In this document: one piece after another, positions 15,066 to 32,130 of the stretch
Layout: every line of letters begins with the position of its first letter
How positions within the stretch are numbered: position 1 is the first letter of the stretch
Assembly (NCBI GenBank): GCA_027532775.1
Contig: JAPZTO010000001.1
Coordinates: 186,001-250,000, forward strand
Length of the DNA: 64,000 nucleotides
Reading direction: 5' to 3'
DNA from: Beijerinckiaceae bacterium
GTDB taxonomy: Bacteria > Pseudomonadota > Alphaproteobacteria > Rhizobiales > Beijerinckiaceae
Notes under the pieces: generated by a model
The model's database searches: none
Told to the model about the DNA's origin: nothing
Seen by the model: the letters and a program-made list of their open reading frames with translations, nothing else
Program-made: the position numbers and the translations under genes

Positions 15066-15962
15066 TCAGCGCCTGCCCTCGCCCTGTTTCGCAATGCCCC
15101 GGAGATAGGCGCCATAGCTGCTTCCGCCCAGCGCCTCGGCAAGCACGCGCAGCATCTCCGCCGTGATGAACCCCATCTCGAAGGCGATCTCCTCCGGGCA
15201 GCAGATCCGGTAATTCTGCCGCGTTTCAAGCGCGCGGACGAAATTCGAGGCATCCGCCATGGATTCGGGCGTGCCGGTATCGAGCCAGGCAAATCCGCGC
15301 CCCATGCGTTCGACATTCAGCAGCCCCTGCCGGAGATAGGCATTGTTCACATCGGTGATTTCCAGCTCGCCCCGCGCCGAGGGCCGGACCGAAGCGGCGA
15401 TGTCGATGACATCCTCGTCGTAGAAATAGAGACCGGTCACAGCCCAGTTCGACCGCGGCTCCCTCGGCTTTTCCTCGATCGAGATCGCACGGCCTTCCGC
15501 ATCGAACTCGACGACGCCGTAGCGCTCGGGATCGGCGACATGATAGCCGAAGATTGTCGCGCCCTTCTCCCGCGCGCCGGCTTTGCGCAGCAGGGACGAA
15601 AGGCCCTGCCCGTAGAAGATGTTGTCTCCCAGCACCAAAGCGGAACGGTGTCCGCGTACGAAATCGGCGCCAATGACATAGGCCTGCGCCAGGCCATCGG
15701 GGCTCGGCTGTTCGGCATAGCTGAACCGGACACCCCATTTCTCGCCCGTGCCGAGCAGGCGCTCGAATTGCGGCAAGTCATGCGGGGTGGAGATGATCAG
15801 GATATCGCGGATCCCCGCCAGCATCAGGGCCGAGAGCGGATAATAGATCATCGGCTTGTCGTAGATGGGGATCAGCTGCTTCGAGAGCGCCAATGTCATC
15901 GGATGGAGGCGCGTTCCGCTGCCCCCGGCCAGGATGATGCCCTTCAACGGTCGCGTGCTCAT
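15066..15962 (-). CDS. rfbA: Glucose-1-phosphate thymidylyltransferase
   Basis: A 298-residue nucleotidyltransferase making dTDP-glucose, the first step to dTDP-L-rhamnose. The signature [20 protein letters not shown] and [18 protein letters not shown] is diagnostic, and [13 protein letters not shown] carries the metal-binding Asp. The length is typical. Translation starts at ATG 15962, overlapping the stop of rfbD (ATGA). It is the last gene of a string running tolC-ABC-hlyD-rfbC-rfbB-rfbD-rfbA, so rhamnose supply is tied to the type I exporter. Confidence 0.97.
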
Positions 15963-16873
15963 GGAATATCCGAATGTCCTGTCGCCGATCCGGCCTGATC
16001 CAGCCGCGCAAGGCAGCGGGAGAGGCCCTCCTCCCAATCCGGCAGGCGGATACCATAGATCCGGTTGAGCTTGCTGCAATCAAGCCGTGAATTTGCAGGC
16101 CGGCGCGCGGGCGTCGGATACTCCGCCGACGGAATCGCCACAACGGGCGGCGGCGGCACGCCTTTCGCCGCCTCGTGGGCGAGAATCGCGCGGGCGAAGC
16201 CGGCCCAGCTGGTCTCGCCGGAGCCGGCCGCATGGAAGATGCCGAAAACGTCGCTTCCCGCAGGGCTTTCCGGCAATCGGCCCGCCATGGCCAGGATGAC
16301 GCGGGCGAGATCCGTGGCATAGGTCGGGCAGCCCAGCTGGTCGCCAACAACCCGCAATTCGGGCCGCTCCCGGGCGAGGCGCCGCATGGTCAGGACGAAA
16401 TTCGCGCCCTCACGGGCATAGACCCATGCCGTCCGCAGGATCACATGGCGCGGATTGGCCGCCGCCACAGCAACCTCCCCGGCCAGTTTCGACCGGCCAT
16501 AGGCGCCAAGCGGGCCTGTCGAATCGGTTTCGAGATAGGGCGCGGCCTTGGTTCCGTCGAACACGTAATCGGTCGAGAGATGGATGAGGGGCAGGTCGAG
16601 CCGCGCGGCGGCAGCCGCCAGCAGACCGGCTGCGGTTCCGTTGATCGCCATGGCGAGGTCAGGTTCGCTCTCGGCCCGGTCAACGGCGGTATAGGCCGCG
16701 GCATGGACGATGACATCCGGGCGCGAGGCGGCCAGCAGGATGTCGAGGTTGGCCGGGGCGGCGAGATCGAGATCGGGCCGGCCGAGCCGCACGATCTCGT
16801 GGCCCGAAGCCGCGCCTTCCTCCGCCAGCGCGCACGCAACCTGCCCGCGAATCCCTGTGACGAGAATGCGCAT
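15959..16873 (-). CDS. rfbD: dTDP-4-dehydrorhamnose reductase
   Basis: A 304-residue short-chain dehydrogenase/reductase family enzyme for the last step to dTDP-L-rhamnose. The nucleotide-binding turn is [12 protein letters not shown], followed by [26 protein letters not shown] and the catalytic YGRSKLAGE (Tyr-x-x-x-Lys). The segment [11 protein letters not shown] and [10 protein letters not shown] are typical of RfbD. It lies 6 bp after rfbB and overlaps rfbA by 4 nt. Confidence 0.97.
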
Positions 16874-16879
16874 GGTGCC

Positions 16880-17935
16880 CTAGTCCTGCCCGGCCAGGCC
16901 GAGCCGCTCGCCGGCATAGACCTTCTCGCGCAACGGGCGCCACCACCATTCGTTTTCGAGATACCAGCGGATCGTCTTCTCGATCCCGGTGTCGAAATTC
17001 TCTTCGGCGCGCCATCCCAGTTCGGTCTCGAGCTTGGTCGCGTCGATCGCATAGCGCTGGTCATGGCCAGGACGGTCGGCGACATGGGTGATCAGCGAGC
17101 GATACGGCGCGGCCTTCGGCACGAGCCTGTCGAGCATGGCGCAGATCTGGCAGACGACATCGATGTTCCGGCGCTCGTTCCGGCCACCGACATTGTATCG
17201 CTCGCCGATCCGGCCGCGCGTCACCAGAAGGCGCAAGGCCTTCGCATGGTCATCCACATAGAGCCAGTCCCGGATCTGCGTGCCCTCGCCATAGACCGGC
17301 AGCGGCTTGCCGTGCAGCGCGTTGAGAATGACCAGCGGGATCAGCTTTTCCGGAAACTGGAACGGCCCGTAATTGTTCGAGCACCCGGAGAGGATGACCG
17401 GGAGGCCATAGGTCCGGGCCCATGCACTGGCGAGATGATCCGCAGCAGCCTTTGTTGCCGAATAGGGTGAGGACGGATCATACGGCGTCGTCTCCCGGAA
17501 GGCGCCGGTCTCTCCGAGCGAGCCATAGACCTCGTCGGTCGAGACCTGCAGGAATCGAAACGCATCCCGGCTTTCCGGCTGCAGGCCCTGCCAGTAATCC
17601 CGGGCGGCCTCGAGCATCGAGAATGTCCCCATGACGTTCGTCTCGACAAAGGCCCGCGCCCCGGTAATCGAGCGGTCGACATGGCTTTCGGCTGCGAGAT
17701 GCATCACGGCATCCGGCCGGAACTCGGCCAGAAGGGCCTTCATCCGCTCCGTATCACCAATATCCGCCTGCTCGAACGCATAGGCCGGCGCATTGGCGAT
17801 CGTGGTCAGCGAAGCGAGGTTGCCAGCATAGGTCAGCTTGTCGACATTGAGGACCGTGTCGCCACATCCGGAGACGAGGTATCGACACAGCGCCGAACCG
17901 ATGAACCCCGCGCCGCCGGTGACCAGAACCCGCAT
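16880..17935 (-). CDS. rfbB: dTDP-glucose 4,6-dehydratase
   Basis: A 351-residue extended SDR enzyme of the usual length. The Rossmann turn is [25 protein letters not shown] follows; the catalytic region contains [12 protein letters not shown] and [40 protein letters not shown] and YVDDHAKAL are family hallmarks. It makes dTDP-4-keto-6-deoxyglucose, the substrate of RfbC. It sits 21 bp downstream of rfbC in the same string. Confidence 0.98.
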
Positions 17936-17956
17936 GCTCCTGCCCCCCGCTGCCGA

Positions 17957-18511
17957 TTACACGAAAACCGGGCCAAGATCCCGGAAGGAAGGCGCAGCAG
18001 CATCCTTCGCCGAGAGCCGCGCCGAAGCTTCATCGACCGGCCATGAAATACCGAGATCCGGGTCGTTCCACCGCACCGCACCGTCATGCGGCGCGCTGTA
18101 GAAGGCGGTGACCTTGTAGAGCAGATCGACATTGTCCGTCAGGGTGCAGAACCCATGCAGGAACCCTTCCGGCACCCAGAGCACATGGCCATTCTCCTCG
18201 CTCAGCTCGATGGCGAGATGCCGGCCATAGGTCGGCGATGAGGCCCGCGCATCCACGATGACATCCAGAACGGCCCCGCGCGAGACGCGGACAAGCTTGC
18301 CCTGCGCCATGGGCGGGCGCTGGAAATGCAGGCCGCGAACCGTTCCCTTCGCGCGTGAAACGGAGTGATTGTCCTGCACGAAACGGCGCACCCCGACCTC
18401 GCGCTCGAACACATCCTGCCGGAAAACCTCGGCGAAATGGCCGCGATCATCGCCCCAGCGTTGCGGCGTGAAGAGAACAGGCCCGTCGAGATCGAGGCGC
18501 TCAACGCGCAT
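17957..18511 (-). CDS. rfbC: dTDP-4-dehydrorhamnose 3,5-epimerase
   Basis: A 184-residue cupin epimerase. Motifs include HFAEVFRQDVF, FVQDNHSVSRAKGTVRGLHF with the active-site His, GKLVRVSRGAVLDVIVDAR, and VPEGFLHGFCTLTD. The length is normal. Order in the operon is hlyD then, after 20 bp, rfbC, rfbB, rfbD, rfbA, so all four enzymes for dTDP-L-rhamnose are present and intact. Confidence 0.97.
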   Translation of the reverse strand: MRVERLDLDGPVLFTPQRWGDDRGHFAEVFRQDVFEREVGVRRFVQDNHSVSRAKGTVRGLHFQRPPMAQGKLVRVSRGAVLDVIVDARASSPTYGRHLAIELSEENGHVLWVPEGFLHGFCTLTDNVDLLYKVTAFYSAPHDGAVRWNDPDLGISWPVDEASARLSAKDAAAPSFRDLGPVFV

Positions 18512-18531: not shown

Positions 18532-19854
18532 CTAGCGTTCCTTGAGCGCTTCATCTCTCAGCATCCTCGCGGGTTTGAGGATATAGCTCAGGACGCTCTT
18601 GCGGCCGGTGAGAATCTCGACCTGGGCCACCATGCCGGGAATGATCGGCAGTGAGGCCCCGGCCCGGTCAAGATTGTTGCGCTCTGTCCGGACGATCACC
18701 CGGTAGAACGGGTCGCCGCGCGGGTCCGTCGTCGTGTCGGCGCTGATCCGCTCGACCTTGCCGCTCAAGGTTCCGAAAATTGCGCTGTCATAAGCGGTGA
18801 TCTTGACGATGGCATTCTGCTCCGGACGGATGAAGCCGATATCCTGCGGCCGGACCTGCGCCTCGACGAGCAACGTATCATCCAGCGGCACGATGTCGAT
18901 CAGCGGCGCGGCAGACTGGACCACCGCCCCGACGGTCGTGACATGGATGCGGTTGATGATGCCCCGGACGGGCGCCCGCAATTCGGTTCGCCGCACGCGG
19001 TCCTCGGCGGCCCTGAGCCCTTCGTCGAGCACGGCAAGATCGGCCCGCGTCTTCGTCAGTTCCTCCTCGGCTCCAGTCCGGAAGGCCACAAGCGCGCCCT
19101 CCCGCTTCAACTGGGCCTCGCGGACACCGCCTTCCGCCCGGGTGAGATTGACGCGGTTGACCTCGAGCTGGCCGTTCAGTTCCGCCAGCTGGCGTTCAAG
19201 CCGGAGCATCTCGATTTCCGGAACGAAGCGATCGGAGAAGAGCTTCCGGGTGATGGCCAGCTCGCGTTCAAGGAGCGGCTTGCTCGCCAGCATCCGCTTC
19301 CGCTGGGCATCCAGCTCTTCCTGTTCGCGCGTCTTCTGCGCCACCTGCTGCTCGAGGACTTCCTGTTCCTGCGCGAGCTTGCGGACCCGCGCTTCGTGCA
19401 GGGCCCGCTCGGCAGCGACCGCCGCCGGGAACCGTTCCTCGAGGCCATCTGGAAATGACAGGGCGGCAGCCTCGGAAAACCGGGCTTCGCGTTCGAGCCG
19501 GGCGAAGCGGGCCTGCAACGCGGCACGCCGCTCCCGGGCCTCGCCGAATTGCGAGCCGAGGACCGTATCATCGATCCGCACCAGCACCTCGCCCTGCCGG
19601 ACAAGTTGCCCTTCCGCGACAAGGATTTCCTGAATGAGCCCGCCTTCAAGCGACTGGACAACCTGCATCTGGCGGGAAGGAATCACCTTGGCCTGCCCCC
19701 GCGTAACCTCGTCGAGGATGGCGAAGGCGGCCCAGATCGAGCCGAGCACGAGCATGGCGAGGCAGATGAGCGAGAAATACCGCAGGGTCCGCGGCATCTC
19801 GAGCCGTTCCGCCGCGCCGAGATCATTGGCGAAGGCAAAATCATCGGCCTTCAT
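18532..19854 (-). CDS. Type I secretion membrane-fusion protein, HlyD family
   Basis: A 440-residue periplasmic adaptor. One N-terminal transmembrane helix (LRYFSLICLAMLVLGSIWAA, residues ~24-43) is followed by the lipoyl half-motif VVQSLEGGLIQEILVAEGQL, a long coiled-coil hairpin (~residues 115-275, rich in Glu, Arg and Leu heptads), the second lipoyl half (LRAPVRGIINRIHVTTVGAV) and a beta-barrel end. It links the inner-membrane ABC protein to TolC. Start overlaps the ABC stop (ATGA). The likely cargo is the 1448-residue RTX-like protein encoded upstream. Confidence 0.95.
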   Translation of the reverse strand: MKADDFAFANDLGAAERLEMPRTLRYFSLICLAMLVLGSIWAAFAILDEVTRGQAKVIPSRQMQVVQSLEGGLIQEILVAEGQLVRQGEVLVRIDDTVLGSQFGEARERRAALQARFARLEREARFSEAAALSFPDGLEERFPAAVAAERALHEARVRKLAQEQEVLEQQVAQKTREQEELDAQRKRMLASKPLLERELAITRKLFSDRFVPEIEMLRLERQLAELNGQLEVNRVNLTRAEGGVREAQLKREGALVAFRTGAEEELTKTRADLAVLDEGLRAAEDRVRRTELRAPVRGIINRIHVTTVGAVVQSAAPLIDIVPLDDTLLVEAQVRPQDIGFIRPEQNAIVKITAYDSAIFGTLSGKVERISADTTTDPRGDPFYRVIVRTERNNLDRAGASLPIIPGMVAQVEILTGRKSVLSYILKPARMLRDEALKER

Positions 19855-22016
19855 AGCGCCGCTCCCGAGGGTCCGGACGTGACTTTCTGGGGCTTGCCGG
19901 CCAAAGCGGCGAGAACAGGCTCACGCGGGCCGTCGGCCACGACGCGGCCCCGCTCGAACACGATCAGGCGATCCACCATCTGGAGCAGCGAGACCCGATG
20001 CGTCGAGACGATCAGGGTCGCGGTCCGGTCCAGCCGGGCAAGCCTCTGCGTGAACTCCGCCTCGGTTCGGAGATCGAGCGCGCTGGTCGGCTCGTCGAGG
20101 AAGAGGATCTTCGGCCGGCGGATCAGGGCCCGGGCAAGGGAAATCGCCTGACGTTGCCCGCCCGAAAGGCTCCGCCCACCTTCGGAGACCGGCAGGTCAT
20201 AGCCGAGGGGCGAGAGCGCGACGAATTCCTCGACACCGGCGACGCGGCAGGCCTCGATCACCTCCGCATCGGTGGCGGTCGTGCGTCCGAGGCAGACATT
20301 CTCGCGCACCGTACCCTGGAACAGGATGCAATCCTGACCCACGAAACCGAAGCCCTGGCGAAGATCGGTCGGGTCGAACTGGCGGATATCGATGCCATCG
20401 ACCATGATGCGGCCAGCCTGCGGGGCATAGAGCCCGGCAGCGAGACGGCCGACCGTCGTCTTGCCCGAGCCGATCCGCCCGACAATGCCGACGCGCTCGC
20501 CCCCCTTGATGGTGAAGCTGACATCGGTCAGGGCGTCCTGGTCGGCACCCGGATAGCGGAAGGAAACGCCATCGAAGCGAAGGCTGCCCTCCTCGACCCG
20601 GCGAGCCACGAAGATCCGGCCCGGCGGCCGCTCGACCGGCAGGTCCATCAGGGCATTGATGGCCTTGAGCGCGTGCAGGGTGCGGGCGCCGCGCATCATC
20701 AGCGAGGCGATATTGGTCACGGGCGCGAGAATACGGCCGGAGAGCATGGTCGCCGCGATCAGTGCACCCATGGTGATCTTCGCGTCCAGCACAAGGAAGA
20801 CGCCCCAGATCACGATCAGCAGCGAGGCGAGGTTCTGAGCGGCGGCGGACAGGGTCAGGCCGACGGAGGCCCAGCGATGGACCGATTCGCCGGCCCGGGT
20901 GGAGGCGGCAACCGAGCGCTCCCATTGCCGCTGGACCCGGCTTTCCGCACCGAGCACGCGGATCGTTTCCAGCGCGCCGATGCTCTCGACCAGAATGCCA
21001 TGTCGCGCGGCGGATTCCGCCTGCACGGATTTCACGGCCTCGTCGAGGGGCCGCTGGATCAGCAGGCCGATCCCGATCGTGACCGGCAGGAGAATCAGCG
21101 GGATGACGGCCAGCCAACCGGCGATCCCGGCCATGAAGCCGAGGAAAATGAAGGCGAAAAGCAGGTCCGTCGCGGCAATCACCGTGCCGGAGGTGAAGAA
21201 TTCGCGGACATTCTCGAAATCCCGGATCTGGTTGGCGAGCACCCCGGCCGAGCCGGGATGGCGCTCCATCCGCAAGCCGAGGACATGCGAGAAGACCCGC
21301 GCGGCAAGGATGACGTCGATCTGCTTGCCGGTAATGTCGATCATGCGCGAGCGGACCAGCCGGAGCGCAACATCGAAGGCAAAGGCGAGCAGGACCCCGA
21401 TCGACAGCGCGATCAGCGATGCGACCGCGCCATTCGGCAGGATCCGGTCATAGACATTCATCGTGAAGAGCGGGAAGGCCAGGGCCAGCACGTTGATCAG
21501 GAAGGCCGCCAGCGCGATGTTCAGGTAATTGGCCCGGAACAGGCGCAACGTCATCCAGAACCAATGCGAGGACGGGGTGCCGGCCTGCTCCGTACGGGCT
21601 CCGAGCCCAGAGGACGGTTTCAGGAAGAAGGCGTAACCGGAATAGAGCGCCTCGAGTTCCGCGCGCGGCAAACGCCGCTGTTCCGGCCCGGCGGCCGCGG
21701 GATCATAGACAGTGACCTCGCCCGAGGCGGCGTCATTGCCCAGCAGGACGAGGACGCTCCGGTCCCGCAGCAGGAGAACAACCGGCAGGACCAGTTCGGG
21801 GATGTCCTGCAGGCTGCGCTGGACCGGTTCGGCCACCAGATCGGCACGGGCTGCCGCCCGGATGAAAAGACCCGGGGGCAATTGTCCGTCCGTCGCCGGA
21901 AGCCCGGCCATGATGGCCGCCTCGCTGACGGGGCGACCATGGAACCGGGCAATAAACATCAGGGCAGCCAGCAACGGGCTGGCCTGAGCCGGATTCGACA
22001 CGGCTTTGTCTGTCAC
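19851..22016 (-). CDS. Type I secretion ABC permease/ATPase with N-terminal peptidase-like domain (LapB type)
   Basis: A 721-residue ABC exporter. Residues ~1-135 resemble the C39-like domain of LapB/HlyB exporters but lack a catalytic Cys at the expected start, so it should bind rather than cut the substrate. The membrane domain spans ~165-450. The nucleotide-binding domain has Walker A GRIGSGKTT, signature LSGGQRQAISLARALI and Walker B ILFLDEPTSALD. Translation begins at GTG overlapping the tolC stop (GTGA), and its own stop overlaps hlyD, so the exporter is tightly coupled. Confidence 0.95.
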   Translation of the reverse strand: MTDKAVSNPAQASPLLAALMFIARFHGRPVSEAAIMAGLPATDGQLPPGLFIRAAARADLVAEPVQRSLQDIPELVLPVVLLLRDRSVLVLLGNDAASGEVTVYDPAAAGPEQRRLPRAELEALYSGYAFFLKPSSGLGARTEQAGTPSSHWFWMTLRLFRANYLNIALAAFLINVLALAFPLFTMNVYDRILPNGAVASLIALSIGVLLAFAFDVALRLVRSRMIDITGKQIDVILAARVFSHVLGLRMERHPGSAGVLANQIRDFENVREFFTSGTVIAATDLLFAFIFLGFMAGIAGWLAVIPLILLPVTIGIGLLIQRPLDEAVKSVQAESAARHGILVESIGALETIRVLGAESRVQRQWERSVAASTRAGESVHRWASVGLTLSAAAQNLASLLIVIWGVFLVLDAKITMGALIAATMLSGRILAPVTNIASLMMRGARTLHALKAINALMDLPVERPPGRIFVARRVEEGSLRFDGVSFRYPGADQDALTDVSFTIKGGERVGIVGRIGSGKTTVGRLAAGLYAPQAGRIMVDGIDIRQFDPTDLRQGFGFVGQDCILFQGTVRENVCLGRTTATDAEVIEACRVAGVEEFVALSPLGYDLPVSEGGRSLSGGQRQAISLARALIRRPKILFLDEPTSALDLRTEAEFTQRLARLDRTATLIVSTHRVSLLQMVDRLIVFERGRVVADGPREPVLAALAGKPQKVTSGPSGAAL

Positions 22017-23437
22017 GGCACCTTGGGCGCCTGGGGCACCAGATCAATCGGCGGGAACAGCGCGCCGCTTTCCTTCAGACCGCGCATCTTGTTGGCGGCC
22101 TCGCCCGGCAGCGGAATGTTCAGCGCCGAGAGCAGCGTACCGGAAGCGGCGAGCAGCTGGTAATCGGCGAAGAGCGCCAGTCCGCGCGCATTGATCAGCC
22201 CGACGGCCGCGTTGTACCGGCTCTGCTCGGCATTGAGGAGATCCAGCAAGGTCCGGTTGCCGAGTTCAAACTCGTTCCGGTAGGAGCTGACAACCTGCTC
22301 GGCGGCCCGGATCTGCCCGGTCAGCGCGCGGATACGATCTCCCAGAGCCTGCCGGGTGGTCCAGGCCTTGTCGATTGATTCGATCGCCTGCCGCTGAAGC
22401 ACCGAAAGCCGCATCCGCTGCTCGCCGACGCGCTCGGTCAGCTCGTTCTGGCGGGCCGTGTCGGTCCCGCCGGAATAGATCAGCCAGGACGCAGACAGCT
22501 TGGCGCTGTATTCATCATACCGGCCGGTAATGTTCTGGGTATTCTTGCCGTAGCCGGCACGCCCTTCGAGCGCCACCGTCGGCAGGTTGGTGCCCCGCGC
22601 CGCATCCCGCTGCGCCTGCACGGCGTTCACGTCGGAGCCAGCGGCCTGAAGCGTGGCATTGTTGCCAATCGCGAGATTGAGGGCTGCCTGGCGAGAGGCC
22701 GGCAAGCCCTTGGGGCGGGCAGGCCAGGCCAGCTTGCTGGGTTCGCGGTCGATCGCGCGGCGGAACAGGGCCACCGCCTCACCGAGCCGGACCTGCAATT
22801 CGGCGCGCGCCGCCTCGGCGGCATAGACGCGTTCCTGCACCTGATCGAGGTCACCCCGGCCCGAACGACCGCCGGAGACCCGCGCGCTGACGCTCGACAG
22901 CAATTCGCGGTGAACCGCGATGTTGCGGTTGGCCTGCGCGATCATGTCCTGGAGACGCAGGATATCGGTGTAGGCCTGGATGGCGTCGAGCGCGATGAGT
23001 TCGGTACGCTCCTTCACCCGCCACGACGCGGCATCGACCCGGTAGGCCTGACGCCAGGTTTCGTTGATTGTCGCGAAACCGTCGAAAATGAGCTGGCGGA
23101 CGGTCACATTGGCCTGGCGCCCCGCCACAAAATCACCGCTGCGCTGCGAGGCAACGAGGCTGTCATACTGGCGGCGGCTCTCCGGGCCGATATCCGCCTG
23201 GAGCCGCACCTGCGGCAGCAGGCCACCCTGGACCTGCCGCATCTCGAATTCAGTCGCACGGCGATTGGCCGCCGCTTCGCCGACCGCCGGATTGGTGGTC
23301 ACCGCACGCCGTACGGCCGCATCCAGCGAAAAGGTCTGCGCGGAGGCAGGAGCCGCGAAGGCCAGCGCGGCAAGAACAAGCCCAATTCGGATTGGCACAG
23401 GGAGCCACCTTACATTCTGACAGTTAGGCCGCAACAT
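22013..23437 (-). CDS. TolC-family type I secretion outer-membrane channel
   Basis: A 474-residue outer-membrane factor with a signal peptide (PIRIGLVLAALAFAAPASAQ). Two related halves are visible: TFSLDAAVRRAVTTNPAV opens the first and ALNLAIGNNATLQAAGSDVN the second, as expected for a TolC duplication. Other typical parts are NVTVRQLIFDGFATINETWR and the C-terminal DLLNAEQSRYNAAVGLINA. I prefer ATG 23437 to the longer frame start at 23461. It is the first gene of the exporter-rhamnose string, 213 bp beyond the stop of the giant RTX-like gene. Confidence 0.95.
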   Translation of the reverse strand: MLRPNCQNVRWLPVPIRIGLVLAALAFAAPASAQTFSLDAAVRRAVTTNPAVGEAAANRRATEFEMRQVQGGLLPQVRLQADIGPESRRQYDSLVASQRSGDFVAGRQANVTVRQLIFDGFATINETWRQAYRVDAASWRVKERTELIALDAIQAYTDILRLQDMIAQANRNIAVHRELLSSVSARVSGGRSGRGDLDQVQERVYAAEAARAELQVRLGEAVALFRRAIDREPSKLAWPARPKGLPASRQAALNLAIGNNATLQAAGSDVNAVQAQRDAARGTNLPTVALEGRAGYGKNTQNITGRYDEYSAKLSASWLIYSGGTDTARQNELTERVGEQRMRLSVLQRQAIESIDKAWTTRQALGDRIRALTGQIRAAEQVVSSYRNEFELGNRTLLDLLNAEQSRYNAAVGLINARGLALFADYQLLAASGTLLSALNIPLPGEAANKMRGLKESGALFPPIDLVPQAPKVP

Positions 23438-23599
23438 TGTCCAAGGCTCCCAAACAATCAACCCGTCAGACCTGAGTCTCGTACCGATGCCTATTCAGAA
23501 AGTCCGGAGATGTTGCAGAAGTGACGCTGCACTCGAAGGTTGACCCCTCGCATTCTTCTGGGTTTACCCCTCCGGTGCGCCCGGAACGGGAGAATTCAG

Positions 23600-23650: not shown

Positions 23651-26600
23651 TCATACAATCTTGATGTCGCTCGCGGTGACGGTTCCGGCTTCCAGGGTCG
23701 CCAGGGCAATCATCGACGAGCCACCGCCGGAACCATCCGCATCAAAATAGAGCGTCTGATCACCGGTATTGAAGAGAAAGCGCTGGTCGCTGTTGGTATA
23801 GTTCGCGCCGGAGAAGAAACGCGAAGCATCCAGCGTCCCGGTATCCGCTCCACCGAAGGCAAGTCCCGCACCGATATCAGACGCGAGGAACTGGAACGCA
23901 TCCATCCCGGTCATGAAATCGCGCAGGGTGTCGCCCCCTTCGCTGGTCACCTTCCGATACGCCACGATATCAGCGCCGAGGCCGGTCGTGATGTCGTCGT
24001 CACCGACCCCGCCGAAGATCACGTCATTGCCGATCCCCGCGAGGATGGCGTCATCGCCACCGCCACCATCGATCGTGGCATTGCCCGCGCCGGTCACCGT
24101 GATCTGGTCGCTGCCATTGCCGGCATTGACCGTATCGTTCGTCCCGGACAGCGTGATCGTGTCGTCGCCGGAGCCGGAGGTGATCTGGTTGACGCCACCG
24201 CCTGCGCTGATGTCGTTGCCGCCATTCCCCGCAACGATCGTATCATCGCCGCTGCCGGCCACGATGACATTGCTGCCATTGCCGAGCGTGATCACATTGT
24301 CGCCGTCGCCGGCACCGACCGAATTGTCGCCATTCCCGGCCGTGATCGTATCCGCACCTGTGCCGGCGGTGATCGCATTCGCGCCGCCGCCAAGGGTGAT
24401 CACATTGTCCCCGCCGCCGGCATCGACGGCGTTGTCGCCACCCCCGGCCGCGATCACATCCGCCCCGCTGCCCGAATTGATCGTATTGTCGCCGCTGCCG
24501 GCCGTGATCGCATTGCCGCCATTGCCGGCGAGGACAATGTTGTTGCCGTCGCCGGCATTGATCGTGTTCGAACCATTGCCAACCGTGATCCGGTCAAGGC
24601 CCGAGCCCGCCGTGACGGCATTGTCGCCATCGCCCAGCAAAAGGGTGTTATCGCCCTCGCCGGCGGCAACCGTGTTGCTCCCGTCGCCGAGCGTGATCTG
24701 ATCGTCGCCCGAGCCGGAATCCACGCCATTATCGCCGTCGCCGGCAACGATCGTATCCGCGCCCGTGCCTGCCGTTATGGAGTTTGCACCTGCACCAAGC
24801 GTGATCACGTTGTTGCCGTTGCCAGCATCAACCGAATTGTCCCCATCCCCGGCATTGATCGTATCCGCCCCGGTGCCGGCGGTGATCGCATTCGCGCCGC
24901 CGCCAAGGGTGATCACATTATCGCCGTTGCCGGCATCGACCGAATTGTCACCGCCCCCGGCCACAATCGTATCCGCGCCGGAACCGGAGGTGATCGAGTT
25001 GTCGCCGCCGCCGGCCGTGATCGCATTGCCGCCATTGCCGGCGAGGACGATGTTGTTCCCGCCGCCGGCATTGATCGTGTTTGCACCGTTGCCAACCGTG
25101 ATCCGGTCAAGGCCCGAGCCCGCCGTGACGGCATTGTCGCCGTCTCCGAGAAGCAGGGTGTTGTCGCCCTCGCCGGCGGCAACCGTGTTGCTGCCATCGC
25201 CGAGCGTGATCTGATCATTGCCAGCGCCGGAATCGACGCCATTATCGCCGTCGCCGGCCACGATGATATCCGCGCCCGTGCCCGTGGTGATCGTGTTGGC
25301 GCCACCGCCGAGATCGACGATGTTGTCGCCATCGCCGCCATCGATGGAATTGTCGCCGTTGCCCGCAACCAGGATATCGGCGCCGGCACCCGCCGCGATG
25401 GCATTGTTGCCATTGCCCAATGTGACGGAATTGTCGCCCTCGCCGGCATCAACCGAATTGTCGCCATCTCCGGCCGTGATCGTATCCGCCCCCGAACCGG
25501 AGGTGATCGAGTTGGCGCCGCTGCCGGCCGTGATCCGGTTGCCGCCATTGCCGGCAAGAATGACGTTGTCGCCTTCGCCGGCATCGATCGTGTTCGCGCC
25601 GTCGCCGACATCGATCTGGTCAAGGCCCGAGCCGGCCGTGATGTCGTTGTCGCCGTCACCGAGCAGCAATGTGTTGTCGCCCTCTCCGGCGGCAACGGTG
25701 TTGTTGCCGTCCCCCAGGCCAACGAAATCATCGCCTTCACCGGAATTGACGTCATTGTCGCCACCCCCGGCAAGGATGGTATCGTTGCCGTCGCCGCCGA
25801 TGATCACGTTGTTGCCGTTGCCCGCCGCGATCTGGTCAGAGCCCAGACCGCCATCGATCGAATTGTCACCGTTGCCAACAAGGATGATATCGGCACCGGC
25901 GCCGCCATTGACCGAATTGTCGCCTGTTCCCAATGCGATAAAGTCGATGCCGTCGCCACCATCTACTGAATTGCTGCCGTCGCCGGCGGCAATGATGTCA
26001 CTGCCGGCACCGCCATTGATGACATTGTCGCCATCGCCGAGTGTGATGAGATCATCGCCATCGCCGCCATCGACGATGTTGTTGCCGTCACCAGCGCTCA
26101 GGATATCGTCGCCGCCACGGCCGGAAATCGTGTTGTTCCCGCCGCGGCCATTGATCAGGTTGGTCCCGTTATCGCCCAGAAGGGTATCGTCCCCCGAGCC
26201 GCCGCCGAGATTCTCGATGCTCGAAATGCTGGTGAAACCGGAGGCCGTGCCCGCGAGCAGATCGGCCGAGACGGACACAGTGGCCGCATTGTAATCCAGC
26301 GTATCGCGACCGCCGCCGCCCGCGAGTGTGACGATCTCGAGATTTGCGAGATTCGGGGCGACCGGCAAGCTGTTGAAGCCGCTCGTCAGGCGCGTCAGGG
26401 CGCTGCCGTCGAAATCGACGAGGAACCGGTTGATCCCGTTATCCCCGAGGATGGAGAGCGTGTCCGTTCCGTTCCCGCCATCGAGCAGGATGTCGGTGCC
26501 ATCGCCAGCACGGTAGATCAGGGTATCGTTGCCATCGCCGGTGCGGATGGTATCGGCGCCGCCCATCCCCTCGATACGGTCATCGAAACGCGTGCCGGTG

Positions 26601-27997
26601 AAATTGTTGAGGCCCGTTGTATCGCGGACATCGGCAATGACGGGGACCGAGGCCAGAACGGTCGCGGTGGCCCCGAACGCGTCGGTCACCGTCACGGAGA
26701 TGACGCGATCCGCGATATCCATCGCGAAAGTGCGCTCGGTATTGACGTAGCGGATCTCGCTGACGAGCGCCTGGACCTCGGCGGGCGTGTAGCCTCCCGG
26801 CCCGGCAACGAAGGAAAGGCTCGTGCCGGTCGTCGCGCCACGCACCAGCACGCCGGACGCGCCGGTGGCTGTGGCGGAGAGCGTCACATCGACGCGGCTG
26901 AACGTGTCACCATCCGGATCGGCAACCGAAACCTGGCCCTGCCGGACAATGGTAACGCCCGATTCGGCGCTGATGGTGCCGGTCGAGCGGGCCGCTTCCT
27001 CGGCGGTAAAGCCCCGGTAGCCCGTCCCCTCGGCGCCGGTGTCGATATCGATGACCGGCCGGTCATTGGTCCCGGTGATTGTCACCGTCACCGTCGCCGT
27101 GCTCGACAGGCCCGAGGAATCCGTCACGCGGTAGGTGAAGATATCCGTCACCTGGAGGCCCTGGCTCAACGCCTGGACCTGGGGCGAACCATTGTCGAGC
27201 ACATAGGTGTAGGTGCCATCGGCGCCGATGACGATCTGGCCGTAGGTGCCGGCCAACGTAACGCCGACATTGCCGGCCGATTCGCTGGCACCGACGCCGA
27301 CGCCGGTCACGGCGGCCGCACCGCTGGTCGTATCGTTCAGAAGAACATTGCCCGAGGCATTCGGCTGGCCGGGGAATTCCGCATTCCCTTCCCCGCCGAC
27401 GCCTGCCTCGGAGACGGCGGCCTCGTTGGCCACCGCAACCGGCGCTTGCAGGACAGGGCCGCTTGGGCCGCCCGGGCCGCCATTCTGCTGCGCGACGAAG
27501 GGCGTTAGTTGCGGCGGCTCTTCAAAGCTTGCGCGGCGGAACTCTTCCTGCGGGTTGAGATCATTCAGAGCCTGCCCGGGAAGGCCTTCGAAGCCCGAGC
27601 CATTACCAAACGGCCCCCCGCCGCCGAGCGGGCCGCGCGGCGGCAGCGATACGCCGGCCGCCGTGAGAATCTGCAAGTCTGTGGTGATCGGCGCCTGCGC
27701 GACGAATTCGCCGGCCATCACCGTCGAATTGCCGTCGAGATTGACGGCGATGTCCCGGGCCGGCTGCCCATCCGGCAGGAAGAGCCCCTCGACGACAATG
27801 TGAGCCTTGTCCTGGAACAGGATAACCAGCCGGCCGTCGATCTTCAGCAGGGTGATCGGATCATTCACGATTGCCGAGAGATTGAGCGCATCGCCGGGCG
27901 CCAGCCGGATGACCTCCGCCGTCCCCGCCGTTGGCTGACGGAGCCCGAAGACGCGCCCGGCCACTCCTGCCTGCGTAGAGACTGTCGTTCCGGCCAT
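23651..27997 (-). CDS. Giant secreted RTX-like surface protein with VCBS domains and Asn-rich nonapeptide repeats
   Basis: A 1448-residue protein, the probable cargo of the adjacent type I exporter. The ~115-residue N-terminal globular domain ends at ILTAAG (residues 111-115 include TAAG). A Gly/Pro linker follows (116-185), then a VCBS-like domain (~195-315; NVLLNDTT, GTYTYVLDNG, FTYRVTDSSG, TVTVTITGTND) and a second Ig-like domain (~318-458). From ~465 the chain is RTX-like; residues 654-1283 hold 70 contiguous nine-residue units of pattern GxGx(N/D)x(I/V)xx. By my count 49 of 70 carry Asn and 21 Asp where RTX proteins bind calcium through Asp. The last ~100 residues (ADIVAYRKVTSEGGDTLRDF ... 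ASDIKIV) look like a C-terminal type I secretion signal. ATG 27997 follows AAGAGGG. It may be an adhesin or coat protein; the exact role is unknown. Confidence 0.88.
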   Translation of the reverse strand: MAGTTVSTQAGVAGRVFGLRQPTAGTAEVIRLAPGDALNLSAIVNDPITLLKIDGRLVILFQDKAHIVVEGLFLPDGQPARDIAVNLDGNSTVMAGEFVAQAPITTDLQILTAAGVSLPPRGPLGGGGPFGNGSGFEGLPGQALNDLNPQEEFRRASFEEPPQLTPFVAQQNGGPGGPSGPVLQAPVAVANEAAVSEAGVGGEGNAEFPGQPNASGNVLLNDTTSGAAAVTGVGVGASESAGNVGVTLAGTYGQIVIGADGTYTYVLDNGSPQVQALSQGLQVTDIFTYRVTDSSGLSSTATVTVTITGTNDRPVIDIDTGAEGTGYRGFTAEEAARSTGTISAESGVTIVRQGQVSVADPDGDTFSRVDVTLSATATGASGVLVRGATTGTSLSFVAGPGGYTPAEVQALVSEIRYVNTERTFAMDIADRVISVTVTDAFGATATVLASVPVIADVRDTTGLNNFTGTRFDDRIEGMGGADTIRTGDGNDTLIYRAGDGTDILLDGGNGTDTLSILGDNGINRFLVDFDGSALTRLTSGFNSLPVAPNLANLEIVTLAGGGGRDTLDYNAATVSVSADLLAGTASGFTSISSIENLGGGSGDDTLLGDNGTNLINGRGGNNTISGRGGDDILSAGDGNNIVDGGDGDDLITLGDGDNVINGGAGSDIIAAGDGSNSVDGGDGIDFIALGTGDNSVNGGAGADIILVGNGDNSIDGGLGSDQIAAGNGNNVIIGGDGNDTILAGGGDNDVNSGEGDDFVGLGDGNNTVAAGEGDNTLLLGDGDNDITAGSGLDQIDVGDGANTIDAGEGDNVILAGNGGNRITAGSGANSITSGSGADTITAGDGDNSVDAGEGDNSVTLGNGNNAIAAGAGADILVAGNGDNSIDGGDGDNIVDLGGGANTITTGTGADIIVAGDGDNGVDSGAGNDQITLGDGSNTVAAGEGDNTLLLGDGDNAVTAGSGLDRITVGNGANTINAGGGNNIVLAGNGGNAITAGGGDNSITSGSGADTIVAGGGDNSVDAGNGDNVITLGGGANAITAGTGADTINAGDGDNSVDAGNGNNVITLGAGANSITAGTGADTIVAGDGDNGVDSGSGDDQITLGDGSNTVAAGEGDNTLLLGDGDNAVTAGSGLDRITVGNGSNTINAGDGNNIVLAGNGGNAITAGSGDNTINSGSGADVIAAGGGDNAVDAGGGDNVITLGGGANAITAGTGADTITAGNGDNSVGAGDGDNVITLGNGSNVIVAGSGDDTIVAGNGGNDISAGGGVNQITSGSGDDTITLSGTNDTVNAGNGSDQITVTGAGNATIDGGGGDDAILAGIGNDVIFGGVGDDDITTGLGADIVAYRKVTSEGGDTLRDFMTGMDAFQFLASDIGAGLAFGGADTGTLDASRFFSGANYTNSDQRFLFNTGDQTLYFDADGSGGGSSMIALATLEAGTVTASDIKIV
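24149..25687 (-). repeat. Three tandem 513-bp higher-order repeats inside the RTX-like gene
   Basis: The unit beginning GEGDNTLLLGDGD recurs at exactly 513-bp spacing (starts at 25687, 25174 and 24661 on the minus strand), i.e. 171 residues or 19 nonapeptides. Units 2 and 3 are nearly identical over their first 12 nonapeptides (about 98 of 108 residues by eye), whereas units 1 and 2 agree best in their last three. A 108-bp (four-nonapeptide) sub-period is also visible within unit 2. This nested 27/108/513-bp structure points to successive duplications. Confidence 0.9.
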
Positions 27998-28042
27998 CAC
28001 GCCCTCTTACAATGCTTAATTCTGCGTTATCACTTTATTAAT

Positions 28043-28897: not shown

Positions 28898-29099
28898 TAG
28901 AACTTCTGCGTATTATCACTGCTGATTTTGACAAAAATTGATAGTTATGCTTCGCAGCAAAACGGTCATATTCTAGGCACCGCGCCTGCCATGGGTGCAT
29001 TCATGCCTGGATTTTTCAAAAAACGTGAATCTACGGTGTTTTTGCAATTGCCAATTCTTGCGTATCGAATTAATGCGTCATCAACCGCAGGAGGTGGAT

Positions 29100-30152
29100 A
29101 TGTCAGGACCGACGAACGGAAACGATTTTCTTACGGGTGGGGGTATTGTCGACGGCCAGGCCGGCGATGACATCATCATTGGTGGCGCCGGAGCCGACAT
29201 CCTGTCGGGCGGCCTTGGCAACGATATCCTTTCGGGTGGCGGCGGTGCCGACCTCCTCAATGGTGGCCAGGGCGCTGACGTCCTGCTGGGTGGCGGCGGT
29301 GCCGACGTCCTCAATGGCGGGGCTGGCAGCGATGTCCTGACGGGCGGCGCCGGTGGCGACGTTTTCCGGTTCCTCAATGCCGGCAACGACATTGTTACCG
29401 ATTTCAAAGCTGCCCAGGGTGATCTCCTGCAGATCGACAACATTGCCGGCGTGTTCACCGCCGCCGATCTGACGATCACGCAGGTGGGCAGCGCGGTGGT
29501 CATCACGGCCCCGTCCAACCCGGCCTTCTCGATCACGCTCCAGAACACCAACGTCGCGGATGTCACGGGCAGCCTGCTGGTTGCCTGCCTGCTGCGCGGC
29601 ACGATGGTTGCCACGCCGGATGGCGAAGTTGCCGTCGAAGCGCTCGCGATCGGCGATCTCGTCTCGACGGTCGATGGCGTCGCCAAGCCGGTCAAGTGGG
29701 TCGGCAAGCGCGCCTATGCCGGTCCGTTCGCCCGGGGCAATGCCCGCGTGACGCCGGTCAAGATCTCCGCCGGTGCGCTCGGCGACAACATTCCTTCGCG
29801 TGATCTGTTCGTCTCGCCGGAACATGCCGTCCTCGTCGATGGCGCTCTCGTTCCGGCTCAGCATCTCGTGAACGGCTCGACCATCGTGCCGGCGACCGGC
29901 ATCGATGTGATCGAGTATTTCCATGTCGAGTTCGACACGCCGCAGGTCCTGCTGACGAATGGCGCTCCGACCGAGAGCTATGTCGACGAAGGTTCGCGGC
30001 AGATGTTTGCCAACTACGCGGAATATGTCGAGCTGTACGGCGAGACCGCCGGCAACGCCGTGGCCTCGCGTCGTTTCCCGCTGGTCGAGGGCGGTGCCGA
30101 ACTGGAGGCCATCCAGTCCCGGCTCGCCACGCGCATGGCCGTCGCGGCCTGA
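29100..30152 (+). CDS. RTX repeat plus Hint-domain protein
   Basis: A 350-residue protein. Residues ~18-90 are canonical calcium-binding RTX nonapeptides (GGAGADILSGGLGNDILSGG) followed by FRFLNAGNDIVTDFK, typical of type I secreted proteins. A Hint_2 (hedgehog/intein-type) domain starts at Cys163 in ACLLRGTMVATPDGEVAVEA, with the block SPEHAVLVDG (~239-248) and the end block VLLTNGAPTESY (~283-294). No signal peptide is present, as expected for type I cargo. ATG 29100 follows a perfect AGGAGGT. First gene of a three-gene operon. Hint domains can autoprocess; whether this one does is not known. Confidence 0.88.
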   Translation: MSGPTNGNDFLTGGGIVDGQAGDDIIIGGAGADILSGGLGNDILSGGGGADLLNGGQGADVLLGGGGADVLNGGAGSDVLTGGAGGDVFRFLNAGNDIVTDFKAAQGDLLQIDNIAGVFTAADLTITQVGSAVVITAPSNPAFSITLQNTNVADVTGSLLVACLLRGTMVATPDGEVAVEALAIGDLVSTVDGVAKPVKWVGKRAYAGPFARGNARVTPVKISAGALGDNIPSRDLFVSPEHAVLVDGALVPAQHLVNGSTIVPATGIDVIEYFHVEFDTPQVLLTNGAPTESYVDEGSRQMFANYAEYVELYGETAGNAVASRRFPLVEGGAELEAIQSRLATRMAVAA

Positions 30153-30181: not shown

Positions 30182-31153
30182 GTGAGTGGCACCGTCGCAA
30201 AAGCAGGAGTGAAGGGGGTGATGCGCAAGCAGCGCGTCACACCCGGCCTGTTTGTGCTGCGCTACTCGACCGCCAATACGCGCGGCGTCGTCCCCTCGGT
30301 CCTCGTCGAGGTCGAGGATGCGGCGGCCGCCCGGTTGATGCACGATTCCGACGCAACGAGGCCGGTCCTGTCCGGTCCCGGAAGCGGCCTTGTCGTGGTT
30401 GTGGAGAAGGAAACCGAACTCCGCCTCACGGTTGTTGCCGGCACTCCCGGCGGCAGCCTGGACGCGCAGCTCGCCCTCGAGCGGATCGTCACGACAGCTG
30501 AAGCGACGCAACCCGGCGCGACGCCTGAACCCGTTGTTTCCGAACGTGGGCCTGCCCTTATCGGGCACGTGGCGCGGCGCGGCGACATCAAGGTTGGCAA
30601 TGGCGGCTGGATCTGTGGACCGGAAGCGCCGATGGCGATCGAAGGCCTGCAGATTCTCTGGCCTGAAGCGCCCGAAGGCGTCGACATCCTCTTGTCGGCT
30701 GTTATCGGAACCACGACACGGCGTCCGCAGCCTCCTGTCCGGATCGGGCATTTTGCGGGGACCCGGCAAAAGGCGTCGCCTCTTGTCGGCCTCACGCTGA
30801 ACCTGACCGGTGCTGCCACGCACCTTTACTCGCTGACCGTGGAAGCGCTCTTCCTCGGTTCGCCGATCGTCACAAAAACCGGTCCCTACATCGAACTGTC
30901 GGGACCAACCGGGATGGAACCCCTCGTTGGCCTTCGCCTGAAGGTCTCGGGGCCGGACCTCGATGAGTCCGTCCCTGCCAGCATACCCGTCAAGATCGAG
31001 GCGGCCTTGCCCAGCCCGGCCCAATGGACCGGTGAAAGCCAGCCCTTCGCCCGCGATCCGGCGCCTGCTGCCCCCCCTTCTTCGGGGAACCATCGCGTCC
31101 GAGTTTTCCGCGCTCCGCGGGCCACTCAATCTTCGCCCCTTTCTGTCGATTAA
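30182..31153 (+). CDS. Protein of unknown function with three internal repeats, between two RTX genes
   Basis: A 323-residue protein that I do not recognise. No signal peptide or membrane helix is seen. Three related segments recur: GPEAPMAIEGLQILW (146-160), GTRQKASPLVGLTLNLTG (193-210) and GPTGMEPLVGLRLKVSG (241-257), each preceded by a beta-rich stretch, so the C-terminal half looks like repeated beta modules; this loosely recalls ChW-type repeats, but that is not a family call. The last ~45 residues are Pro/Ser/Arg-rich and probably disordered. Translation starts at GTG behind GAGGAGA, 29 bp after the Hint-RTX gene and 20 bp before the next RTX gene, so it is co-expressed with two secreted proteins. 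A surface or chaperone role is guesswork. Confidence 0.8.
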   Translation: MSGTVAKAGVKGVMRKQRVTPGLFVLRYSTANTRGVVPSVLVEVEDAAAARLMHDSDATRPVLSGPGSGLVVVVEKETELRLTVVAGTPGGSLDAQLALERIVTTAEATQPGATPEPVVSERGPALIGHVARRGDIKVGNGGWICGPEAPMAIEGLQILWPEAPEGVDILLSAVIGTTTRRPQPPVRIGHFAGTRQKASPLVGLTLNLTGAATHLYSLTVEALFLGSPIVTKTGPYIELSGPTGMEPLVGLRLKVSGPDLDESVPASIPVKIEAALPSPAQWTGESQPFARDPAPAAPPSSGNHRVRVFRAPRATQSSPLSVD

Positions 31154-31173: not shown

Positions 31174-32130
31174 ATGGCGACTTACGCATACACCCAATCC
31201 GGCCTCGCTACCGATCTGAATACGGGCGCCGTGAACGGAGCCGGCACGTTCAGCCCGGCGGATGCCCAGAAGATCGCAGACTTCCTTGCGTCGAAGGGCG
31301 TTTTCTCCGACACATTCGGCTATGCCGATCTCGTGGTGCCCGGCGACCCGGATGCCGTGAACCCGGGTGAGGAATTCACCATCTATACCGATGCTCCCGA
31401 TGCCGGCTTCAATGTTCCCGGCGCCAACGGCATCGCGATCTTCGACACCGATGGCGACGTGGACGCAACGTTCAACGGCGGCGGCAACAAAGTGGTCTTC
31501 ACCAATGTCGGCGATGACACGCTGACGGCGATGACGGGCAGCAACTACATCGATACCGGCGCTGGCGACGATTACATCACCACCGGCGCAGGCAACGACA
31601 CGCTTCTCGGCGGCGCGGGCAATGACACCCTTCTCGGCGGCGCGGGCAATGACAGCCTGGTCGGCGGCGGCGGCGAAGACAGCATTGTCGGCGGTACGGG
31701 CAATGACACGGTCATTGCCGGCGGCGGGGATGATTATGTCGATGCCGGCAGCGGCGACGATTTCGTGAATGCTGGTAATGGCAACGACTACGTCATCGGC
31801 GGCGCGGGCAACGACACGATCATCGGCGGTGCTGGCAATGATACGATCCTCGGCGGGTCGGGCGATGACCGGATCACCGATACGATGGGTGTCGGCGGCA
31901 ATGCCTCGCTTACCGGCGGTTCTGGCGACGATACCTTCTTCCTCACCATGGCGGGTGGCGGCTCGGCAACGGTCAGCGGCGGTTCGGGCAACGACGACGT
32001 GCTCAACATCTACACCACGGCCAACATCACTGGCGAGACCGGCAAGCCCGGCGGCATCACGCTCATCACCTTCGACGATGGCAGCCAGATCGAAGTCAGC
32101 GGCATCGAAGAGATCAAGATCAACCCGTAA
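31174..32130 (+). CDS. Calcium-binding RTX repeat protein
   Basis: A 318-residue protein. Residues 1-110 are a non-repeat N-terminal domain (DAQKIADFLASKGVFSDTFG, then a beta-rich part); residues ~128-275 contain canonical RTX nonapeptides such as GAGNDTLLGGAGNDTLLGG, with Asp in nearly every calcium position, in contrast to the Asn-rich giant protein. The C-terminal ~40 residues (GITLITFDDGSQIEVSGIEE) form a short beta end that could serve as the secretion signal. ATG follows TAGGAG. It is the last gene of the Hint-RTX operon and is closed by a strong terminator. Small acidic RTX proteins of this kind can be matrix or surface-layer subunits; that role is inferred. Confidence 0.88.
   Translation: MATYAYTQSGLATDLNTGAVNGAGTFSPADAQKIADFLASKGVFSDTFGYADLVVPGDPDAVNPGEEFTIYTDAPDAGFNVPGANGIAIFDTDGDVDATFNGGGNKVVFTNVGDDTLTAMTGSNYIDTGAGDDYITTGAGNDTLLGGAGNDTLLGGAGNDSLVGGGGEDSIVGGTGNDTVIAGGGDDYVDAGSGDDFVNAGNGNDYVIGGAGNDTIIGGAGNDTILGGSGDDRITDTMGVGGNASLTGGSGDDTFFLTMAGGGSATVSGGSGNDDVLNIYTTANITGETGKPGGITLITFDDGSQIEVSGIEEIKINP

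Follow-up and report, generated by a model that had tools for sequence, protein, structure and literature searches.

The window analysed here is a stretch of 64,000 nucleotides from Beijerinckiaceae bacterium (contig JAPZTO010000001.1, positions 186,001 to 250,000), and it carries the gene of a repeats-in-toxin (RTX) protein of 1449 amino acids (aa) in whose long nonapeptide array the residue at the calcium position is either Asn or Asp, in a regular pattern. Comparisons within the array and with related proteins indicate that this choice is maintained by selection and does not drift freely. The pattern is real and conserved and lies within a known fold, and its single features each have precedents. 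We favour, at a probability of roughly 0.6, the reading that the protein is a surface rod secreted by a type I system, probably an adhesin, in which the choice of Asn or Asp repeat by repeat would set the strong calcium sites and would be kept by selection.

Pattern and conservation of the Asn/Asp choice

Residues 655-1284 (window positions 24149-26038) consist of 70 contiguous nonapeptides of the form G-x-G-x-[N/D]-x-[ILV]-x-x, with both glycines present without exception (70/70). On recount, the calcium position was Asn in 49 of them and Asp in 21, the same figures as those counted by eye in the initial annotation, which had been made from the letters of the window. The nine-residue register extends upstream to residue 601, and the whole array therefore comprises 76 repeats, with 52 Asn and 24 Asp. 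A perfect alternation had been described for the first 12 repeats; it is in fact strict over 17, since the block begins four repeats upstream of the first repeat then counted. When the 74 letters from residue 619 onwards were shuffled 100,000 times, such a run came up only 14 times, and the complete lack of adjacent Asp-Asp pairs in these 74 repeats was matched once. Downstream of residue 763, the commonest spacing between Asp is four repeats, that is two turns, as had been noticed before. Periods of 108 bases and of 19 repeats are present, and three 19-repeat units begin at residues 754, 925, and 1096.

The identity among these three units is 68-84% (16-32% of residues differ) and the Asn/Asp letter agrees at 19/19 calcium positions in each of the three unit pairs, which bears out the earlier remark that Asp falls at the same places in successive units. 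Asn and Asp codons are one transition apart, so the number of swaps between them is a direct test of this constancy. Among the units of the window, no swap was found at 57 calcium positions compared, versus 14/47 at positions 2 and 4 of the repeat (Fisher 4e-6, the unit pairs not being independent), and the third codon base had changed in 14 of the 57 calcium-position codons. The same was observed between the window and two congeners: with L034, swaps amounted to 1/76 at the calcium position and 13/74 at positions 2 and 4, and with L035 to 1/54 and 9/48. L034 shares the 76-letter pattern with that one difference, the letters of the alternating block being identical, and an assembly artefact of one genome was ruled out on this ground. 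Asn and Asp are thus kept apart at the bridging position of natural arrays nearly as strictly as glycine is retained, and in regular patterns.

Related arrays in the genus and the class

The genus was searched with the N-terminal third of the protein as query in 17 genomes, its own included, of which 10 matched. Asn-containing arrays were detected in 7 of the 16 congeners (orthologs L034-L040; L030 and L031 are other records of the L034 and L035 genomes, Beijerinckiaceae metagenome-assembled genomes), for which the strict motif counts 49, 36, 45, 22, 9, 7, and 9 Asn, respectively. L041, both L042 proteins and the second-locus paralogs L043, L045, and L046 have 0 to 2 Asn. The L035 ortholog is about 200 aa shorter, as the alternating block is missing together with some of 19-repeat unit 1, indicating that the block was gained or lost as one piece. 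The paralog L043 (G000:C15:157000-161700), located about 50 kb from the gene, combines related N- and C-terminal domains with Asp repeats over 1256 aa, and it carries TQAG where others have TAAG.

For the survey of the class, whole-genome searches with the repeats of the window covered 297 genomes from the order and 385 from the class, and loci were taken from the matches listed to these queries, so that the sample leans towards arrays like that of the window. Runs of fewer than six repeats, duplicate or contained runs, and L079, the window itself, were dropped; one open reading frame (ORF) may yield several runs, and L057 and L065 are near-identical. The lag tests were made on arrays with at least 4 Asn, at least 4 Asp, and at least 14 repeats. 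Of the 40 regions of set S1, 36 were chosen from the matches listed by open-frame length and four (L128, L146, L147, and L148) since a shorter locus at the same place showed Asn. In this sample, Asn at the calcium position is uncommon outside the genus. In the regions picked by length alone, 34 of which gave a run, Asn occupied the calcium position in 29/2076 repeats; with the four Asn-chosen regions added, the count rose to 183/2452 among the matches listed. Best-match loci (46 of 58 with a run) gave 66/1213. Among the matches listed, 7 of 232 runs had at least 30% Asn, and none of the 178 listed runs of at least eight repeats from outside the genus exceeded 60%, versus 52/76 in the window.

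Where Asn is common at the calcium position, its placement is patterned. Besides the orthologs, this holds for unrelated arrays, of which L146 (G686:C1:4312000-4325500) is the extreme case: an ORF of 3635 aa whose 224 nonapeptides run without a break and keep perfect DDNN order over the first 211. Like the window protein, this alphaproteobacterial array has patterned Asn and Asp and an Asp-type C-terminal end; it differs in its order and its length, and, because of the DDNN order, 214 of its 222 stacked pairs are mixed Asp/Asn. Between repeats four apart, L146 showed Asn/Asp mismatches at 2/220 calcium positions, at 26/42 for position 2, and at 9/91 for position 4. A tandem repeat rich in Thr, Ser, Gly, and Asp precedes this array. 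Stretches of DDNN were also found in L128, L148, L066, and L081, and an ND alternation with other letters mixed in was found in L147. All-Asp RTX arrays among the survey loci contain a hidden four-repeat similarity (36 residues, two turns) at the variable positions 2, 4, 6, and 8, with lag-2 similarity at or below chance.

The two kinds of turn also tend to differ in position 2, Asn turns towards G[D/N/E]GxN and Asp turns towards G[S/A/T]GxD. In the window, Asp, Glu, Asn, or Gln (a class picked after the window had been seen) stands at position 2 in 29/43 distinct Asn repeats versus 4/23 distinct Asp repeats. The direction was the same in the 8 loci compared, with p<0.01 in six (0.078 in L147 and 0.41 in L101). 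Of nine loci, five (the window, L036, L037, L128, and L148) show the strongest association between residues of one and the same repeat, and no such peak was seen in the other four (L038, L146, L147, and L101). Position 2 is of mixed composition in all-Asp arrays (A 28%, D 22%, S 11%).

The initial annotation had considered the substitution specific to this protein, with normal Asp in the neighbouring RTX proteins. The latter was confirmed, neither 28995-30152 nor 31174-32130 having a motif with Asn at the calcium position, and the specificity stands against paralogs of the same genome. It does not extend further: orthologs share the pattern, unrelated arrays show ND or DDNN orders, and the C-terminal repeats of MARTX toxins, in the part of a review available to us, have an 18-residue consensus, X(V/I)XXGXXNX(V/I)XXGDGXDX, alternating Asn and Asp. 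The MARTX first loop is looser and the likeness is one of published consensus only.

Predicted roll, calcium sites and export

A structure prediction had been suggested in the initial annotation; it was made here for residues 595-970 with AlphaFold, which ignores calcium. A confident solenoid was obtained (pLDDT 96, pTM 0.88) with a strand about every nine residues, a parallel beta-roll as in RTX proteins, to which the Marinomonas antifreeze roll (3p4g) is a strong match. According to the available parts of PMC6891781 and, for the first point, of the review, two nonapeptides make one turn of such a roll, the ion lies between repeats i and i+2, and every Asp links two ions that are 4.8 Å from each other; in the strand, the X-residue side chains are said to face outward, the loop ligands are main-chain carbonyls and Asp, and the carboxylates repel each other without calcium. 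By this geometry, the stacked pairs of the array are 9 Asp/Asp, 28 Asp/Asn, and 37 Asn/Asn. The alternating block places 7 Asp/Asp pairs on one edge and 8 Asn/Asn pairs on the opposite one, and further on in the array 11 or 12 consecutive turns have only Asn on one edge before the edges change. The Asp edge facing an Asn ladder that had been deduced earlier is thus supported for the alternating block, most of the array beyond residue 763 being without alternation, and of the proposed edge swap it holds that the Asp-bearing edge changes over the whole array.

These features have precedents, namely alternation in a lipase roll and in the MARTX repeats, and calcium at an Asp/Asn pair of CyaA; the sources were available in part. 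In the second roll of Serratia marcescens LipA (PDB 2QUA), Asp is lost in every other repeat, with calcium on one edge only and water on the other, although this is a short lipase block with one-residue insertions rather than a rod of 76 repeats in which a higher-order pattern is retained. The long continuous roll of an RTX adhesin, MpIBP region IV (PDB 3p4g), also binds calcium on one edge only, but its turns have 19 residues (XGTGND-XUXU-GGXUXG-XUX) and its bare edge has a different loop sequence and not Asn in place of Asp. In CyaA, calcium is bound between D918 and N936, a stacked pair 18 residues apart (PMC13224072); it is a single site in a toxin cap and not a long array. In the window protein, Pfam matches at E<=0.001 were HemolysinCabind and Big_9 only, with no other toxin domain. 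The supposition that Asn excludes calcium was not supported: in CyaA an Asp/Asn pair holds the ion, so an Asn need not stand for an empty site, and MIS38, a lipase close to LipA, has two ions also on the substituted side (review). Thus, by analogy, the 28 mixed pairs probably bind calcium, likely more weakly, and the 37 Asn/Asn pairs are probably the only good candidates for empty sites.

The genes adjoining the array gene (Table 1) suggest export by a type I system. A TolC match adjoins the ortholog in L030, L031, and L036-L040, and in L030 and L031 the ABC gene does so too. Among 13 aligned proteins, TAAG at residues 113-116, a putative LapG cleavage site (the literature checked contained no 'TAAG'), is present in eight, which are all the Asn-array ones, the window protein included; the other five have TQAG (4) or PASG (1). 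A LapG-type protease is encoded in the genome (PF06035, 219.5 bits, with a second match at 65.3 bits; the control matched in 1/14). Because of this motif in all eight Asn-array proteins and of this protease, a LapA-like, releasable surface protein is likely. At the other end, the last three motifs or more are of Asp type in 12 of 13 stop-terminated Asn-array proteins. In the window protein, the C-terminal block has Asp in every matched motif and one intervening repeat with Ala; the tail is 101 aa long in 6 of 8 genus members and 77 and 111 aa in the remaining two, with similar sequences.

Reading of the pattern and alternative explanations

On the favoured reading, the protein would be exported and held at the outer membrane, probably as an adhesin, and its central part would form a single beta-roll rod, roughly 18 nm long if each of its about 38 turns takes 4.8 Å. 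The calcium-bridging residue would be set to Asp or Asn repeat by repeat, the choice being held by selection, and three kinds of pair would result: Asp/Asp pairs as normal sites, Asp/Asn pairs that can bind, likely more weakly, and Asn/Asn pairs that probably form a ladder with little or no calcium. Type I substrates exit the cell C-terminus first, and for this reason the Asp-type C-terminal repeats would start calcium-driven folding before the Asn-rich rod emerges; the rod would close up afterwards, needing fewer calcium ions and meeting less repulsion between carboxylates.

Several observations weigh against parts of this reading. Neither the three unit pairs nor the close congeners L034 and L035 are independent, and the constancy within units may be owed partly to their age. 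The block absent from L035 is evidently dispensable, Asn is scarce and without clear pattern in L039 and L040, and the larger part of the array does not alternate. An all-Asp array would probably fold in AlphaFold too, and in MIS38 the edge that lacks calcium in LipA still carries two ions. L081 breaks the Asp-end rule with a final Asn motif, and 8 of the 12 proteins obeying the rule come from one genus. Finally, no PF16448 match for LapD was found in the genome, in a search without any responding control, and no clear fold match was found for the N-terminal domain.

It is possible, but in our view rather unlikely, that the Asn turns bind calcium near-normally, by the Asn oxygen, main-chain carbonyls, and the acid that is often present at position 2, with the pattern merely tuning affinity or charge. 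The CyaA and MIS38 sites and the enrichment of D/E/N/Q at position 2 of Asn turns speak for it, whereas roll 2 of LipA has no calcium on the edge of the substituted Asp and the published description has the side chains of X residues facing outward, with main-chain carbonyls and the Asp as loop ligands. Moreover, the near-absence of Asn/Asp exchange at the calcium position shows that the two residues are not equivalent there. That same near-absence bears on whether the pattern is a mere by-product of repeat expansion, copied units of 4 and 19 repeats having carried the letters along. The 108-base and 19-repeat periods agree with such copying, and the four-repeat period at other positions of all-Asp arrays shows that part of the pattern is duplication history. 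Yet, at equal divergence, Asn and Asp swap often at positions 2 and 4 but once or never at the calcium position, and the independent L146 keeps its DDNN order with the mismatch counts given above, which makes copying improbable as the whole explanation. That the Asn ladder or outward loop residues present a face to which ice or a polysaccharide binds, like that of the Marinomonas roll, is very improbable: the register has nine residues and not the 19 of the GTGND ice repeat, Thr stands at position 2 in 5/70 repeats only, and the bridging residue is buried in the loop of the published rolls, in the parts available to us.

If the Asn/Asp choice does set the calcium sites, RTX rods might, as we suggest tentatively, carry a heritable 'calcium barcode' made of the two turn types G[DNE]GxN and G[SAT]GxD, with periods of two or four repeats and a lineage-specific order of full, mixed, and empty sites on each edge. 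The DDNN design of L146 would then provide one carboxylate at nearly every site, and in that of the window one edge would stay bare over 11 or 12 turns before the edges swap; such a barcode would tune the calcium demand and stiffness of very long rolls. RTX repeats are usually taken as interchangeable calcium binders and serve as calcium switches in protein design. The two arrays, with 76 and 224 repeats, are very long natural rolls without linkers, on which the number of carboxylates per turn needed for beta-roll folding and the placing of calcium at will on one edge become testable. In the parts of the literature checked, we found no account of Asn/Asp patterns being maintained along long rods.

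Table 1. Features of the RTX gene and of the adjoining secretion genes (window coordinates)
Feature	Coordinates	Strand	Remarks
RTX protein gene	23651..28000	-	ORF, 1449 aa; GTG start at 28000, ATG is codon 2
Conserved N-terminal domain, residues 1-116	27653..28000	-	T-A-A-G (27653-27664) at its end, LapG-like cleavage motif
76 nonapeptides in a single register, residues 601-1284	24149..26200	-	Calcium position: Asn in 52, Asp in 24
Block of 17 strictly alternating Asn/Asp repeats, residues 619-771	25688..26146	-	
19-repeat unit 1, residues 754-924	25229..25741	-	
19-repeat unit 2, residues 925-1095	24716..25228	-	
19-repeat unit 3, residues 1096-1266	24203..24715	-	
C-terminal Asp-type repeats, residues 1294-1348	23957..24121	-	Register shifted by one residue
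C-terminal tail after the last repeat, 101 aa	23654..23956	-	Presumed C-cap and putative type I secretion signal
TolC-type outer-membrane channel of type I secretion system	22013..23461	-	TIGR01844
Type I secretion ABC transporter, LssB type, C39-like domain	19851..22016	-	TIGR03375, 862.6 bits; Peptidase_C39 match
HlyD-type periplasmic adaptor	18532..19854	-	TIGR01843

In Pfam, the RTX protein gave a PF00353 HemolysinCabind match of 267.3 bits in 13 stretches and a Big_9 match at residues 209-307. No Cys was seen by eye in the first 140 residues of the LssB-type transporter. On the forward strand, 28995-30152 encodes a short RTX protein with a Hint domain (PF13403), which also adjoins the orthologs in L030 and L031, and 30182-31153 encodes a protein of 323 aa, located between two RTX genes and kept in L030 and L031, for which no Pfam or NCBIfam match was found. 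Downstream of the secretion genes, dTDP-sugar genes (RmlD-like, GDP-Man_Dehyd/RmlB-like, and dTDP_sugar_isom) occupy 15959-18511 on the reverse strand, arranged as in a surface polysaccharide locus.
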